DNA of 64,000 bases, taken from positions 248,001 to 312,000 of the forward strand of contig JAIQGL010000001.1 of the NCBI GenBank assembly GCA_020072585.1, in the 5' to 3' direction. Under the pieces are notes generated by a model that saw nothing but the letters and a program-made list of their open reading frames with translations, searched no databases and had not been told where the DNA came from. Positions 24,773-49,602 of this stretch are shown one piece after another. The DNA comes from Terriglobia bacterium. GTDB lineage: Bacteria; Acidobacteriota; Terriglobia; Terriglobales; Acidobacteriaceae. Made by a program: the position numbers and the translations under genes. The stretch's first letter is position 1. Each line of letters begins with the position of its first letter.

Positions 24773-25342
24773 TTACTGCTTTGGCTGCGGCGGTGGTTGC
24801 TGCTGCTGCGACGGCGGCGCCTGCTGCTGCACCATCTGATCAAATTTTTTCTTCTGATCGTCATTCAACGAGGTGCGGACCTTGGAGATGGTAGCTTCGC
24901 GCAGAGCCTGGATCTTCTGGATCTTATCTTCACGCGCGAGCGAGTTGTCCTGCACTACCGTCATGGCTTGGGTGTGCTGGTCTTCCAGCGCCGTTTTGAC
25001 CTTGGCCTGCTGGTCCACTGACAGGTTCAGCTGGTCTGCCAATGACCGTACCTGATCGTCGATGGTGGGATGGCCTGCCGGAGGAGCGCTCTGTGATTGT
25101 GGTGCGGTTCCCGGTTGCTGCTGGCCTGGCTGCGTCGCGCCCTGATTTTGTGAAGGCTGGTCTGGCAACGGCTGAGTCTGCGCAGGCTGGGTCTGCGAGG
25201 GCTGTGCTGGCTGCATGGAGCCTTGCGGCGGTTGTTGCCGCGGAGGTTGCGTCGCCGGATTGCCGGCCGGGTTCTGCGATGCGAATGCTCCCACTGCAAA
25301 AAAGAATGTGCAGGTTAAAAGTGCGGTCTTGATACTTTTCAT
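24773..25342 (-). CDS. Spy/CpxP-like periplasmic protein with Pro/Gln-rich linker
   Basis: 189 residues. A signal peptide (MKSIKTALLTCTFFFAVGAF) is followed by a low-complexity Pro/Gln/Thr/Ser linker (about 22-85) and a helical domain (about 90-175; DQLNLSVDQQAKVKTALEDQ, then SLNDDQKKKFDQMVQQ) in which the LT/LN...Q pattern of Spy/CpxP-like proteins is repeated twice. It ends in a PPPSQQQQPPPQPKQ-like tail. A periplasmic chaperone or stress role is inferred from the family. The gene at 25995-25576 encodes a shorter paralogue. Confidence 0.65.
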   Translation of the reverse strand: MKSIKTALLTCTFFFAVGAFASQNPAGNPATQPPRQQPPQGSMQPAQPSQTQPAQTQPLPDQPSQNQGATQPGQQQPGTAPQSQSAPPAGHPTIDDQVRSLADQLNLSVDQQAKVKTALEDQHTQAMTVVQDNSLAREDKIQKIQALREATISKVRTSLNDDQKKKFDQMVQQQAPPSQQQQPPPQPKQ

Positions 25343-40805: not shown

Positions 40806-41216
40806 TCACATCCTGATCAGCATCTCCGCAAAGTCCGCTGATACGACCATGCAGCGCCTTATTTCGCAGCCGGCAGGCAGATTGAGCGTGGACGCCAGGC
40901 CAGGAGAGCCAGCATCAGAGAATAGCCGCAGGGTTTCGGCGTCCGCTTCTTCGGGACGTACCTCAATCATGAGCGAATAGAAGCGCTTCTCCGGCGCGCC
41001 CGCCGATGCGTCGCAGCCCCCCGGCGCCTTACCACCGGAGACCTGCGCAACCGCATCGACTGTAGGGGAGCCGGAAAGCCGCGACCAGGGCGCGAACCAC
41101 AGACCAAACCGCAGAACCGACTTGAGACCAGATCGAATACCCAGGCCCATTGCTCTGAAGATCCGTGTCCTGAAGACCTGCGTTCTGAAGATCCGCGTTC
41201 TGAAGGTCCACGCCAT
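40806..41216 (-). CDS. Unrecognised protein over a 15-bp tandem repeat
   Basis: About 136 residues from the ATG at 41216 (GGAG upstream), MAWTFRTRIFRTQVFRTRIF. The N-terminus is encoded by a 4-copy 15-bp tandem repeat; the C-terminal part (KRFYSLMIEVRPEEADAETL to SADFAEMLIRM) looks like a folded alpha/beta domain without a known family. In another frame of the same strand the repeat reads DLQNA DLQNA GLQDT DLQSN, a canonical pentapeptide repeat, for 60 residues only. Which frame is used, or whether a frameshift has separated them, cannot be settled by eye. The gene at 6345 has a similar 5-residue rhythm. Confidence 0.4.
   Translation of the reverse strand: MAWTFRTRIFRTQVFRTRIFRAMGLGIRSGLKSVLRFGLWFAPWSRLSGSPTVDAVAQVSGGKAPGGCDASAGAPEKRFYSLMIEVRPEEADAETLRLFSDAGSPGLASTLNLPAGCEIRRCMVVSADFAEMLIRM
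41155..41214. repeat. Four-copy 15-bp tandem repeat
   Basis: Copies at 41155-41169, 41170-41184, 41185-41199 and 41200-41214, consensus CTGAAGATCCGCGTT on the plus strand. Differences between copies are mostly single bases, so the array is either old or under coding constraint. Confidence 0.75.
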
Positions 41217-41996: not shown

Positions 41997-43133
41997 ATGA
42001 GGGCAAGGACTTTTTCGGCCTTATGCGGCGTTATGGCTGGTCTGGTGGTTTGTGTTGCCGGCTTTCTTTCCGGCTGTGCCAGCGGGCACAAGGAGTTTGC
42101 TTATGTGACGGGGCAGGGCACCAATGAGGTCTTTGAGTTCCGCGTGCAAAACAACGGCACGCTGGCGCCGCTGGGGACGCCGAATTTTCCTGTCGGATCA
42201 AATCCCTCGGCCCTTGCGCCGCACACCTCTGGCGACTTCCTTTATATAGCCGATTTTTCCGGCAATGATGTGACCCTGCTGGACATCAACAAGAGCAACG
42301 GCAATCTTTCCATACCGGTGACCACCAGCATTGTTGTGCCGGTGAATCCGCCCAACATTTTTAATACCGGGACCGGGCCGATCTCGCTGGCCATGTCGCC
42401 GGTTGCGCCGTTCCTGTTTGTGGCCAACCAGGTGTCCGGCAACATCACGGTTTTTACCGTTGATCCGGGCACAGGCAGCCTGGGCGCGGTGGCCAACTCT
42501 CCGTTTCTGATTACTCCGGCATCGAACCCGCATTCGCTCGCGGTATCGCCCAAAGGCGACTTCCTGTTTGTGGCCAATACCACGCAGGGGACCGTGGCGG
42601 TATTTGCCATCGGAAACAATGGAGTGCTGACCGCGGCGGCAGGCTCTCCGTTTTCCATGGGCGCAGGCGCTACGCCGAACCAGGTCGTGGTCGGGCGTGA
42701 TGGCCGCTTCCTCTACGTGACGGATTCGGCCAACAACGCTGTTCTGGGATTCGCCATCCAGACGAACGGAACGCTGGCGGCAATCAACGGTTCGCCTTTT
42801 GCCGCGGGAGCCGCGCCCGGCGGCCTGGGCATCGATCCTCAGGGGGCGTTGCTGTTTGCCGCCAATGCGGGATCGAATAACGTTTCCGCGTACGTGATTG
42901 ACGCCAACTCGGGAGCGCTGGGCCCGGTGAGCGGATCTCCTTTCGCCACCGGTGGCGTCGGCCCTTCCGCTGTGGCCGTCAACTCGACCACCACGGCCGT
43001 CTATGTGACCGACTTTATCAGCCATGACATTGCTGCATTCTCCATATCCTCCACCGGCGCGCTTAAGCCGTTGACCGGTTCACCCTTTGGCGTGGCCACG
43101 GCTGCCTCGTCGATTTCGCTCGTAACCCGGTAA
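41997..43133 (+). CDS. Lipoprotein with YVTN-type beta-propeller
   Basis: About 378 residues from the ATG at 41997 (GAGGGA upstream). A lipobox LSGC follows a hydrophobic stretch (AGLVVCVAGF), so it is probably an outer-surface lipoprotein. The remainder consists of about seven repeats of the YVTN/lactonase (6-phosphogluconolactonase-like) propeller: GDFLYIADFSGNDVTLLDIN, PFLFVANQVSGNITVFTVDP, GDFLFVANTTQGTVAVFAIG, GRFLYVTDSANNAVLGFAIQ and ALLFAANAGSNNVSAYVIDA. Acidobacteria carry many such proteins; none has a proven role. The upstream frame is open but lacks a start. Confidence 0.8.
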   Translation: MRARTFSALCGVMAGLVVCVAGFLSGCASGHKEFAYVTGQGTNEVFEFRVQNNGTLAPLGTPNFPVGSNPSALAPHTSGDFLYIADFSGNDVTLLDINKSNGNLSIPVTTSIVVPVNPPNIFNTGTGPISLAMSPVAPFLFVANQVSGNITVFTVDPGTGSLGAVANSPFLITPASNPHSLAVSPKGDFLFVANTTQGTVAVFAIGNNGVLTAAAGSPFSMGAGATPNQVVVGRDGRFLYVTDSANNAVLGFAIQTNGTLAAINGSPFAAGAAPGGLGIDPQGALLFAANAGSNNVSAYVIDANSGALGPVSGSPFATGGVGPSAVAVNSTTTAVYVTDFISHDIAAFSISSTGALKPLTGSPFGVATAASSISLVTR

Positions 43134-43317
43134 AAATGGTCACTCGGTAAAAATGGTGACTCCGCAAGAAGAGACTCGCTAAAGACGGCAATCGGCAGAA
43201 GTAAAAAGCTTAAAGTCAGCAATCCGTCCGGGCGAGTCCGGCACCGCGAGTGCAACTGCCACCATGCACTCCTGGTGCTTGTAGGCGGTTTTTGAACATG
43301 CTAAATACACCAGTACG

Positions 43318-47063: not shown

Positions 47064-48101
47064 ATGGTGATCAATATGGCAGCAGGCGCTTCAGAGGCGG
47101 AACTTCAGCACGTGATTGATCGGATCGTGGAATGCGGATTTCAACCGCACGTCACGCGCGGTGCGGAGCGGGCCATTGTGGCCGCGGTGGGCTCGGGCGG
47201 ATCGCGCATGGCGCTGGAAGCTCTCAAGGCTGCGCCCGGCGTGGAAGACGTTGTGCCCATCGCGCATCCATTTAAGCTGGTGAGCAAGCTGGCCAAGAGC
47301 GGACGCACGCAGGTCGACGTCGGCGGCGTGATGATCGGCGGTGAAGACGCTGTGGTGATTGCCGGGCCGTGTTCGGTTGAATCGCGTGAGCAGCTTTTCT
47401 CCACCGCTCGCGCCATCAAGGCCGCAGGCGCCACGCTTCTGCGCGGCGGAGCCTACAAACCGCGTACTTCGCCGTATGACTTCCAGGGCCTGGGCATTGA
47501 GGCCTTAAGGCTGTTGCGTGAGGTCCGCGAAGAAACCGGCCTGCCCGTGGTCACCGAGGTCATGAGCACGAATGACATCCAGCTCATCAGCGACCATGCG
47601 GACATGCTACAGGTGGGCGCGCGCAACATGCAGAACTATGACCTGCTGCGCCAGCTCGCCAAGGCCAGCAAGCCCATCCTGCTCAAGCGCGGCCCCTCGG
47701 CCAGCGTAAAAGAGTGGCTGCTGGCGGCGGAGTATCTTCTTGCCGGCGGCAACAGCAACGTGGTGCTGTGCGAGCGCGGCATCAAGACCTTTGAAAGCGA
47801 GATGACGCGCAACACGCTTGATCTGGCCGCCGTTGCGCTGGTGCGTGAACTTTCGCATCTTCCTGTGCTCGCTGATCCATCGCACGGCACCGGCAAACGC
47901 GAACTGATTGCTCCGGCAAGCCGTGCCGCGCTGGCCATTGGCGCTGATGGATTGATTATTGAAGTCCATCCCTGCCCGGAGCGCGCTCTCTCGGATGGCG
48001 CGCAGTCACTCAACCTGGAGGAATTCGCGCGGCTTATGAGCGGACTTTCCGCGCCGATCCGGAATGTGGCTGCCGCCGCAACAGTTGCAATGGGCAGGTA
48101 G
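47064..48101 (+). CDS. aroF: DAHP synthase, type I beta with N-terminal regulatory-like domain
   Basis: About 345 residues from the ATG at 47064 (AGGGAG upstream). Residues 1-75 ([40 protein letters not shown]) form the ferredoxin-like N-terminal domain found in Thermotoga-type and Bacillus-type enzymes, which binds aromatic amino acids for feedback inhibition. The TIM-barrel follows, with [61 protein letters not shown] and [16 protein letters not shown]. It condenses phosphoenolpyruvate and erythrose 4-phosphate into DAHP, the first step of aromatic biosynthesis. Being second in the attenuator operon places the first step and the Phe/Tyr branch under one control. Confidence 0.93.
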
Positions 48102-48182
48102 GAAGTGGCCGGGCGCATACGCGTTGCCTTTGCATGCTGACGGCTGGGTGCGGACAAGCTGTCATGTAGACTAATGCAACAC

Positions 48183-48279
48183 GGAAGCGCATGGGGTCCG
48201 GTGACCCTTCCGGTCTTCAAAACCGGCGAGAGTTAGCTTTGCTGGCTCTGGTGAGTTCGACTCTCACACGCTTCCGCCA
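48183..48279 (+). tRNA. selC: tRNA-Sec (selenocysteine), anticodon TCA
   Basis: 97 bases including an encoded CCA. The acceptor arm GGAAGCG (48183-48189) pairs with CGCTTCC (48269-48275); the anticodon arm is CCGGT-CTTCAAA-ACCGG with TCA in the loop; there is a long variable arm (GAGAGTTAGC ... GCTGGCTCT region) and the T arm GTGAG-TTCGACT-CTCAC. An extended acceptor/T stem, a long extra arm and TCA together define tRNA-Sec. It means the organism decodes UGA as selenocysteine; selA, selB and selD are not in the window. The 3' end of the gene is repeated downstream. Confidence 0.92.
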
Positions 48280-48672
48280 CTTTCTTGAACAGCCTTCTTG
48301 CAGAGATCCTTCGACTCCGCTTCGGCAGACCTCAGCGTCGCTCAGGATTTCGGCTGCGGGCTCAGACGCCCGCAAAACGCCTCAAGTTTCGACTCTCACA
48401 CGCTTCCGCCATTTTCTTGAACAGCCTTCTTGCAGAGATCCTTCGACTCCGTTTCGGCAGACCTCAGCGTCGCTCAGGATTTCGGCTGCGGGCTCAGACG
48501 CCCGCAAAACGCTCAAGTTCGACTCTCACACGCTTCCGCTATTTTCTTTAACAGTCTTCTTGCAGAGATCCTTCGACTCCGCTTCGGCAGACCTCAGCGT
48601 CGCTCAGGATTTCGGCTGCGGGCTCAGACGCCCGCAAAACGCCTCAAGTTCGACTCTCACACGCTTCCGCCA
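48256..48672 (+). repeat. Tandem array carrying four copies of the tRNA-Sec 3' end
   Basis: The 24-base segment TTCGACTCTCACACGCTTCC plus GCCA recurs at 48256-48279 (in the tRNA itself), 48388-48411, 48518-48541 (last bases GCTA) and 48649-48672. Periods are 132, 130 and 131 bases. The intervening roughly 107 bases are nearly identical in the three units, with TCCTTCGACTCCGCTTCGGC, CTCAGCGTCGCTCAGGATTT and a GCGGGCTCAGACGCCCGC palindrome. The units therefore repeat both a REP-like sequence and an attachment-site-like tRNA end. Confidence 0.9.
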
Positions 48673-48679
48673 ATTACGT

Positions 48680-49222
48680 TTAGGCCAGGTGCACGTTCGG
48701 CTCGGCTTCGGGCGCTGCGATACCTTCCGGCAATCGTCCGCCGTTATATTCCATCAGCCGGTTCTTCCATTTCAGAAAGTCGGTAATGGTCTGCGGCTCA
48801 ATACGGACTTCCACGCGGCGCAGGCTGGCCAGCAGCAGGTTCATCTCGCGCATCAGGCCGGTTTCACCGCGCTGGCTCTGGCGGCACGGCTTCACCGCCA
48901 TGCGGACTTCGCGGGATTTGCATTCCAGCAGTCCCCATTTCTTCGGCAGCTCGTCTGCCGTGATGAGCCCCTGCGGAACGAGATAGAAGCGCTCGCAACC
49001 CATGGCCAGCTCAGGATCTTTGCGGAAGGGCTTTTCGCGGTCGGCAAAAAAGTCGGCGCGTGAGACCTTGCACTCCACAATCACGGACCGGCATGCGCCT
49101 TTCCATGCGATCACGTCCGGCGTCTCGCCGCTGGCGCATGTCTGCTCTGAAAGGACAATGCCACAACGATATCTTCCGCGAAGCCACTGCTCGGCCATCC
49201 GTACAAGCTGCTGATGGGTCAT
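48680..49222 (-). CDS. PD-(D/E)XK-fold nuclease-like protein (MmcB-like)
   Basis: 180 residues. ETPDVIAWKGACRSVIVECK followed by VSRADFFADREKPFRKDPEL has the PD-...-(D/E)xK layout of the restriction-endonuclease fold (Asp, then ECK) as in MmcB/DNA-repair-like proteins. The N-terminal helix (QQLVRMAEQWLRGRYRCGIV) and C-terminal region are not diagnostic. It may cleave or bind DNA; the substrate is unknown. The gene ends eight bases from the last copy of the tRNA-Sec 3' end repeat, so it could have entered the site along with the array, or be the native neighbour. Confidence 0.6.
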   Translation of the reverse strand: MTHQQLVRMAEQWLRGRYRCGIVLSEQTCASGETPDVIAWKGACRSVIVECKVSRADFFADREKPFRKDPELAMGCERFYLVPQGLITADELPKKWGLLECKSREVRMAVKPCRQSQRGETGLMREMNLLLASLRRVEVRIEPQTITDFLKWKNRLMEYNGGRLPEGIAAPEAEPNVHLA

Positions 49223-49281
49223 GCTTCCTGTTGTAACGCAGAATCAGGCGGAGGGAAAGTATTTTGGGTGGGTCAAAGATA

Positions 49282-49317
49282 AAATCCACCACGGAGATAC
49301 GGAGGCACGGAGAAAAG
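49282..49317. repeat. Dispersed-repeat fragment ACGGAGGCACGGAGA
   Basis: CCACCACGGAGATACGGAGG followed by CACGGAGAAAAG is the widely distributed intergenic phrase with a short period of ACGGAGG/CACGGAG units; here only two to three units. Confidence 0.5.
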
Positions 49318-49602
49318 TTAGCGAGATGAACGCAGTGCTTGTTTTTTTAGTGCACGGGTCTGCGGCACGAGAAAGAAAAAACAGGTTTGCGCAGTAGGCC
49401 AATGAGTGGCCTGGAGGGGCAGGTTACGATGAGGTTTGCGAAAAGCTGAACGGGCTGCATCAAGGGCGGCGAGGGCGACAAAGCTGCTTAGACTACGCCT
49501 CTCGAGCTTCGCCGCTTTTTGCACAGCCTTGTATTCCTCAGTTGTAAAGTATGCGAACACCTTTTTACTGAGATCCTCGTCAGCTCTGCGCCGGGAGCGC
49601 AT
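49318..49602 (-). CDS. Ribbon-helix-helix-like small protein
   Basis: About 94 residues from the ATG at 49602. Residues 10-55 (SKKVFAYFTTEEYKAVQKAA, KLERRSLSSFVALAALDAAR) resemble the beta-alpha-alpha fold of CopG/DUF1778-type antitoxins and regulators: a short strand followed by two helices with the S-S-F-V turn. No partner toxin gene is adjacent. The C-terminal 40 residues are basic and probably unstructured. A DNA-binding role is inferred from the fold. Confidence 0.5.
   Translation of the reverse strand: MRSRRRADEDLSKKVFAYFTTEEYKAVQKAAKLERRSLSSFVALAALDAARSAFRKPHRNLPLQATHWPTAQTCFFFLVPQTRALKKQALRSSR

Follow-up and report, generated by a model that had tools for sequence, protein, structure and literature searches.

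The window, a stretch of 64,000 nucleotides from the genome of a Terriglobia bacterium, carries a complete gene for tRNA-Sec (selC) at positions 48183–48279 of the forward strand, called by ARAGORN and by the Rfam model RF01852 with 73.9 bits. This is the only RNA family that Rfam finds between 47500 and 49500 at E ≤ 1. The 3′ end of the gene is part of a tandem repeat, reported by TRF as a single array from 48254 to 48672 with a period of 132, 3.2 copies and 96% matches. The 24-nt selC end, TTCGACTCTCACACGCTTCCGCCA, starts at 48256, 48388, 48518 and 48649, with spacings of 132, 130 and 131, and its third copy reads CTA in place of CCA. TRF also located three other short tandem repeats in the window (25152–25204, 41154–41209 and 43128–43162).

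Each unit is built, in this order, from a tRNA end (24 nt), a spacer X1 (25 nt), an element Q (80–81 nt) that ends in CTCAA, and one G leading into the next tRNA end; the joint of unit 1 contains one T more than those of the other units. The array starts and stops with a tRNA end, which gives four ends and three copies of Q. The trailer past the last copy (ATTACG...) is unlike X1 (CTTTCTTG...), and, as regards a possible terminator or processing role of the hairpins, there is no U-run after hairpin 2 of Q in the window. The features are:

48183..48279, + strand: selC, complete tRNA-Sec with UCA anticodon and encoded CCA (ARAGORN; Rfam RF01852)
48256..48279, + strand: 24-nt end, copy 1, within selC; the site of the Q-end junction is the T-loop GTTCGA
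48280..48304, + strand: X1 of unit 1, 25-nt locus-specific spacer
48305..48385, + strand: Q copy 1, two-hairpin, REP-like, with CTCAA end; followed by G and the extra T, then TTCGA
48388..48411, + strand: selC 3′ end, copy 2
48412..48436, + strand: X1 of unit 2
48437..48516, + strand: Q copy 2, one C fewer ahead of CTCAA
48518..48541, + strand: selC 3′ end, copy 3, CTA for CCA
48542..48566, + strand: X1 of unit 3
48567..48647, + strand: Q copy 3
48649..48672, + strand: selC 3′ end, copy 4; read as the displaced native end, by analogy with the empty-site comparisons
48673..48692, + strand: X2, trailer beyond the last copy, unlike X1; probably the native flank, from the comparison of G003 with G001

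An earlier note, made from the letters alone, had described the locus as a tandem array of roughly 131 bp in which the selC 3′ end is repeated, and its coordinates and the 24-nt length agree with ARAGORN, Rfam and TRF. Its spacer of about 107 nt with palindromes was also correct. Where it saw four units, each with end and spacer, the four tRNA ends are present but there are only three spacers, the array closing with a tRNA end. The spacer is indeed the same in all units, yet it is a composite of the 25-nt locus-specific X1 and the 80–81-nt dispersed element Q. The near identity of the copies holds: the three full units are 96–97% identical, spacers included, and differ by point changes and 1-nt indels. 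A CRISPR array, which the note had dismissed, is ruled out because the spacers do not differ among units and are as alike as the rest of the unit. An assembly artefact, which it had named as a possible objection, appears unlikely from the sequences, because the units differ in these small ways and because the arrangement of a tRNA gene, Q and a copy of the tRNA end recurs in independent genomes. An integrase gene tied to the unit, which it had suggested as a search target, was not seen by eye beside the array among the ORFs at 44–54 kb.

A dispersed hairpin element

When the array was searched against its own genome, 16 places were returned; the other 15 cover mainly Q, so that the search for the spacer proposed in the note succeeded for its Q part, while the X1 part proved specific to the locus. 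A pattern made of hairpin 2 and CTCAA, which does not include the junction, was found at 67 places in nine genomes of the genus, 16 of them in the genome of the window, and its reversed control gave no match in these nine genomes; Q thus behaves as a dispersed hairpin repeat of the REP kind. It consists of two hairpins. The closing base pair of the stem covaries, with CGCC..CGGCTCAA in 72 of 115 copies and CGGC..CGCCTCAA in 37; pairing is thus kept in 109 of the 115, and 101 have an exact inner stem of 6 nt, in a set that includes loci selected for T-loops. The consensus g-aGgTCCTT contains no GTAG.

Among 20 near-complete genomes of the family, only two hold the exact Q pattern (18 and 4 copies), and the pattern of Q with its junction had no match in a viral contig collection that was scanned for phage carriers. 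Some copies lie within other repeats. At four loci (L003, L006, L030, L033) Q is nested within a second, simple REP hairpin at its CTTCGACT site, and at four others in G004 and G005 (L018, L029, L048, L057) it lies within another repeated intergenic motif, roughly TTTAGATnTTGGGATG...GGGAGGGG.

Junctions and target genes

Beside many copies of Q, a gene end is seen twice, intact ahead of the element and as a fragment past it. Q is fused through its 3′ end (CTCAA) to a position within the gene; this is mostly [C/G]TT, and in tRNA genes usually the T-loop GTTCRA. A direct repeat that starts from the Q end (score of 10 or more) was detected for 30 of 63 genus copies, as against 5.8% when the upstream flanks were swapped, and for 14 of 22 copies in two other genera (controls, 3.2%); the remaining 33 and 8 copies have no detectable gene-end repeat. 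This test is unselected, in that the search pattern excludes the junction. Copies inside arrays were counted singly. The 63 are the distinct sequences from the 67 places, with at least two (G003:C7 and G003:C25) left out and two places overlapping. The bases after CTCAA are [CG]TT in 54 of 85 cases (background 3.1%), and 80 of the 85 have T in the third place. With T-loops set aside, [CG]TT accounts for 39 of 70 junctions and CTT is the commonest site (31 of 70).

We then scanned 84,980 species for Q joined to CTCAAGTTCRANTC, a pattern selected for T-loops. The scan returned 55 matches in 45 stretches, all acidobacterial by record title (Acidobacteria, Acidobacteriales, Acidobacteriaceae, Terriglobia and Terriglobales, and the genera Acidobacterium, Occallatibacter, Sulfotelmatobacter and Acidiferrum, the last two of which we count as acidobacterial). 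For 35 of the 55, ARAGORN called a tRNA no more than 600 nt upstream. In 30 of these 35, across ten isotypes, the fragment after Q is the T-loop-to-CCA end of that upstream tRNA with 0–3 mismatches; in three more (L122, L123, L148) the excess of mismatches comes from a 1-nt deletion, and in the remaining two (L147, L153) another or a broken tRNA follows Q. Among the 20 matches in which no tRNA was called are a tmRNA (L120, called by ARAGORN), tRNA ends that are truncated or diverged, contig ends and one split tRNA (L139); 17 of them, together with L147 and L153, were inspected by eye. The tRNAs are split at L139 and L147, while at L153 a tRNA-Gln lies ahead of Q and the end of another tRNA behind it. 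At L119 and L149 the matching tRNA is absent ahead of Q.

Two of these loci show further peculiarities. At L147, 27 ARAGORN calls are clustered and Q lies, by eye, within a Trp-like tRNA between the anticodon arm and the T-loop. Just upstream of Q at about position 1600 of L118, a tRNA-Arg-like gene recognized by eye, for which ARAGORN made no call, contains an internal 26-bp tandem duplication from the D loop to the anticodon, which could be real or an assembly error.

The earlier note had taken the element to be specific to selC. This did not hold, since the same arrangement is found at many tRNAs, a tmRNA and the ends of protein genes. The latter, named from a reading of their translations, include the 3′ ends of genes for an E2 acyltransferase (L055), an ABC-F ATPase (L047) and a DedA-like protein (L031). 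Antisense targets are the starts of infA (L053, L073), lysC (L036) and mutM (L083, L084), as well as the 5′ ends of genes for tRNA-Ser (L039), tRNA-Thr (L067) and tRNA-Gln (L300). A tRNA gene, Q and a copy of the tRNA end are also found in the isolate Occallatibacter savannae (tRNA-Val, L156) and in G082, a 3.7-Mb genome of the family in about 8 contigs. The note had also allowed for a common REP repeat that merely abuts the tRNA; the hairpin part is indeed dispersed, yet the joint to the tRNA is exact and recurrent.

A simple tandem duplication of the selC 3′ end and its trailer, by slippage or unequal crossover and with no mobile element, would account for the 96–97% identity of the window units, and such a process probably contributed to their number. 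As the origin of the structure it is highly improbable: Q is dispersed genome-wide, the same junction of Q to the T-loop occurs at many tRNAs with different spacers, and the arrays that can be read to their end (the window, L007, L124/L125, L144, L146) stop in a tRNA end and not in a spacer.

Which copy is new

Direct repeats of variable length that start exactly at the Q end could also arise if Q transposed with a long target-site duplication (10–75 bp) and the copies diverged later, and the insertions at L302 and L307/L308, which have near-identical repeats and no spacer, fit a plain target-site duplication. In most of the listed tRNA cases, however, X1 differs from the trailer behind the fragment, with the tRNA parts identical or nearly so, although in some (e.g. 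L134, L141, L143) X1 and the trailer have their first bases in common. Drift after a duplication should leave the functional upstream copy closer to an empty relative. For three protein genes, the downstream and the upstream copy of the gene end were scored separately against relatives with an empty site.

For the E2 gene, the downstream copy matched at 49 of 55 positions and the upstream copy at 39 of 55 (G007), or 45 and 36 of 55 against G000. For the ABC-F gene, where the comparison is limited to 43 nt of gene end, the values were 42 and 30 of 43 (G007) and 32 and 24 of 43 (G000). The gene in G003 ends ...FKGTYAEYQTVQV and stop, followed by Q and then by FKGTYEEYQAAQQQMAVSK and stop, and it is the second of these endings that the empty G007 carries. 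The DedA-like gene gave 41 and 27 of 46 against G000 and a weaker difference, 31 and 27 of 40, against G008. To the left of the junction, 90 nt of gene match at native levels (80/90 and 80/90 with G007, 73/90 with G000), which puts the start of the foreign tract right at the junction or no more than a few bases away. Judged by these identities, it is the downstream fragment that is native in all three genes, whereas the intact copy, which is diverged, came with Q as a newcomer; the insert supplies the gene end and the native one is displaced. A target-site duplication followed by drift predicts the reverse, and we regard it as quite unlikely. As whole explanations, pure slippage and pure target duplication were rejected on the points raised against each.

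Old insertions of Q might instead have spread between lineages by ordinary homologous recombination, taking foreign gene ends along. In G004, the stop codon of both the E2 and the ABC-F gene is immediately followed by Q (L192, L184); this is a donor-like allele with no gene-end repeat, as such a spread would allow. In three of three genes, however, both change-overs fall within a few bases of the junction, where recombination would place them anywhere, and this makes the explanation very unlikely. The two G004 loci are in themselves candidates for the donor form. A search of 398 family genomes for the donors of the E2, ABC-F and DedA ends gave no close one: at E ≤ 0.01, 12 genomes matched, of which two were the source loci; the best other match was the E2 gene of G008 (79%), and the rest were pieces of 23–55 nt.

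Other loci agree to varying degrees. By eye, the sequence that follows the fragment is native at infA (G001), mutM (G003, G007) and lysC (G002). The comparison for infA of G004 (L073) favours neither side as native, and at tRNA-Asn of G005 X1 is closer than X2 to the genus-native trailer, which stands against the simplest donor story. At selC, the sequence does not distinguish a donor end from a native one.

selC in other genomes

The varied numbers of units that the note had proposed to look for were found: among the genus genomes, extra selC ends number three in G000, one in G003, two in G004 and at least two in G007, which has a sequence gap, while G001, G002 and G006 have none. In G003 the trailer after the last copy resembles, by eye, that of the empty G001. 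In a sample of 120 family genomes there were 65 selC matches at 64 bits or more, and seven of 50 inspected, from five genera, have at least one extra end. A three-unit stack with mixed spacers also occurs in O. savannae (L150), where no complete tRNA was called ahead of it, and the selC locus of G004 (L010) has mixed joints, of which two lie in the anticodon loop and the third in the T-loop. Mixed spacers or joints within one array point to separate insertions, whereas the near-identical units of the window allow tandem amplification too. The note's view of an insertion-type structure at a tRNA 3′ end, with repeated insertion, tandem amplification or both, remains the best account of the array.

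Other irregularities at selC were noticed. In G002, a second, diverged tRNA-Sec (L020, C190; ARAGORN SeC) exists besides the usual one (L015). In G003, a degenerate selC piece at which no tRNA was called is followed by a native-type selC trailer (L019, C2), apparently the relic of an excised or decayed island. In G001, a 54-nt second copy of the 3′ part of selC lies about 6 kb from the gene (L013 and L021, C30); with an integrase-like ORF beside the fragment, this looks by eye like an ordinary island.

Relation to known systems

The closest precedent is the RtT array (rttR, Tpr) of Escherichia coli tyrT/tyrV, first described around 1979; tRNA-end arrays were therefore known before that of the window. 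The earlier note knew of no described element with this structure, but the gross architecture is the same: a tRNA gene followed by tandem, palindrome-rich units, each ending in the 3′ end of the host tRNA. In E. coli tyrTV (L241) the units are 178 bp long and each closes with the last 17–19 nt of tRNA-Tyr to CCA; tyrV has four ends, its own included, and three spacers, and one more unit lies between tyrT and tyrV. Of 5,426 E. coli genomes, 4,680 contain a 65-nt RtT hairpin piece, at 1 to 9 places each with a median of 2 (neighbouring copies may count as a single place). RtT differs from the window in sequence and hairpins, and its junction is shifted deeper into the T arm by about 5 nt (AATCC); the Rfam RtT model had no match at 47500–49500. 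To our knowledge, arrays like that at tyrT have so far been left without a mechanism.

Islands, ICEs and satellites that target tRNA genes restore the gene with their own copy of its end and leave the native end as a fragment, as we observe at the three protein genes. Such islands carry an integrase and are kilobases long, whereas the units described here are non-coding, of about 100–200 bp (130–132 bp in the window, with no integrase gene in the element), and have many unrelated targets. For archaeal tRNA-targeting islands, sizes of about 9–23 kb are given in PMC9897764.

This shared logic, with its gene-end replacement and exact common core, raises the question of a tiny circular satellite that carries a gene end as attP and relies on a tyrosine or serine integrase supplied in trans, arrays being tandem integrations. 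The distance of 6 kb between selC and its second fragment in G001 would suit it, as would tyrosine-recombinase-like matches below the integron cut-off in nine of nine genus genomes. The crossover core, however, would have to be short (about 3–12 bp in the three protein genes) and differs at every gene, the only conserved end being that of Q, and a single integrase would have to accept dozens of unrelated cores. There is also no integrase gene by eye beside the window array, and the integron integrase model (TIGR02249) exceeded its cut-off in none of the nine genus genomes, weaker recombinase matches being present in all nine and equally in all 14 controls. We consider such a satellite unlikely. 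Integron cassettes likewise carry a folded single-strand site (attC) at the 3′ end of a small cassette and are joined at a GTT-type point. Q differs in that CTT is its commonest site outside T-loops, and by eye it has neither the box symmetry of attC nor matching outer boxes.

Q shares with REP/BIME elements and with the ends of IS200/IS605 elements that it is a short, dispersed, extragenic hairpin followed by a fixed cut point, and TCAA is also the right end of IS608. It does not have the GTAG/GGAG tag of REPs of the RAYT type, and none of the 12 Y1 genes inspected flanks it as a RAYT gene would. Elements of the IS200/IS605 kind are cleaved after a right end that a hairpin guides, and have a conserved target tetranucleotide to the left of the insert. 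Q has a fixed CTCAA end, which is part of the search pattern, a covarying hairpin and preferred bases to the right of the joint; a conserved left flank was not seen by eye. Y1_Tnp genes are present in all nine genus genomes (62 PF01797 matches), and for the 12 of these 62 that were inspected neither Q nor a complete REP pattern lies within 1.5 kb (less at contig ends), only scattered 7-mers. According to PMC2817692, IS200-type elements make no larger target duplications, and the repeats of Q at its targets are unlike their transposition in this respect.

A proposed model of gene-end cassettes

We propose that the window array consists of three small, non-coding 'gene-end cassettes' stacked at selC. 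The cassette mechanism as a whole is probable, and the insertion reading itself is held with somewhat greater confidence. A cassette would comprise the end of the target gene from an internal NTT site, the short spacer X1 and Q ending in ...CTCAA. It would land at the same NTT site of a resident gene, so that its own gene end completes the gene and the resident end, in tRNAs usually the piece from the T-loop to CCA, is pushed downstream as a fragment.

We infer that folded Q is the substrate of a strand-cutting enzyme, a nuclease-ligase, whose cut falls just behind CTCAA. Where DNA is exposed as a single strand, the enzyme would then join this end to a [C/G]TT site, a motif to which T-loops generally conform. 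To complete the other end, the cut would prime copying from the donor's allele of that gene, and the insertion would thereby be harmless. Copying from the same gene's donor allele would explain both the change-over at the cut and the fitting type of gene, and the split tRNAs (L139, L147) and the joint at L153 would be failures of this step. The match of genes may also come from selection alone, if insertions with a wrong end are lost. At selC, the number would have risen to three by repeated rounds or by unequal exchange between near-identical units. The copies of Q that have no gene-end repeat indicate that Q also moves, or decays, in other ways.

As for the enzyme, our best guess is a trans-acting Y1/HUH transposase of the IS200/REP type; it is a doubtful one, because none of the 12 inspected Y1 genes lies near Q and IS200-type elements are not known to leave larger repeats at their targets.

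Implications

The 3′ ends of tRNA genes are classic landing sites of mobile DNA. Here, the same architecture at many tRNAs and protein genes with empty relatives allows the new copy to be identified. In the literature searched, which covered few subscription papers and included passages of PMC3733652, PMC6006769, PMC9897764, PMC2817692 and PMC3174227, we found no description of tRNA-end or gene-end duplication by REP-like elements in acidobacteria, nor of dispersed hairpins that deliver variant gene ends to tRNA and protein genes alike.

It is conceivable, and we put this forward tentatively, that these units represent an acidobacterial class of mobile unit in which a non-coding hairpin travels with a diverged host-gene end and is inserted at the same point of the gene in other lineages. 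Such a unit, with one end site-specific and the other set by homology, would swap gene ends between species harmlessly and would stack at tRNA genes such as selC. For annotation, downstream tRNA ends and gene-end fragments in these genomes may be displaced native pieces and not decayed pseudogenes. An element with a spare gene end can land inside a gene and leave it unbroken, which suggests that an insertion need not be a kilobase-sized, integrase-bearing island to restore a gene end, and that bacterial lineages may exchange short gene ends.
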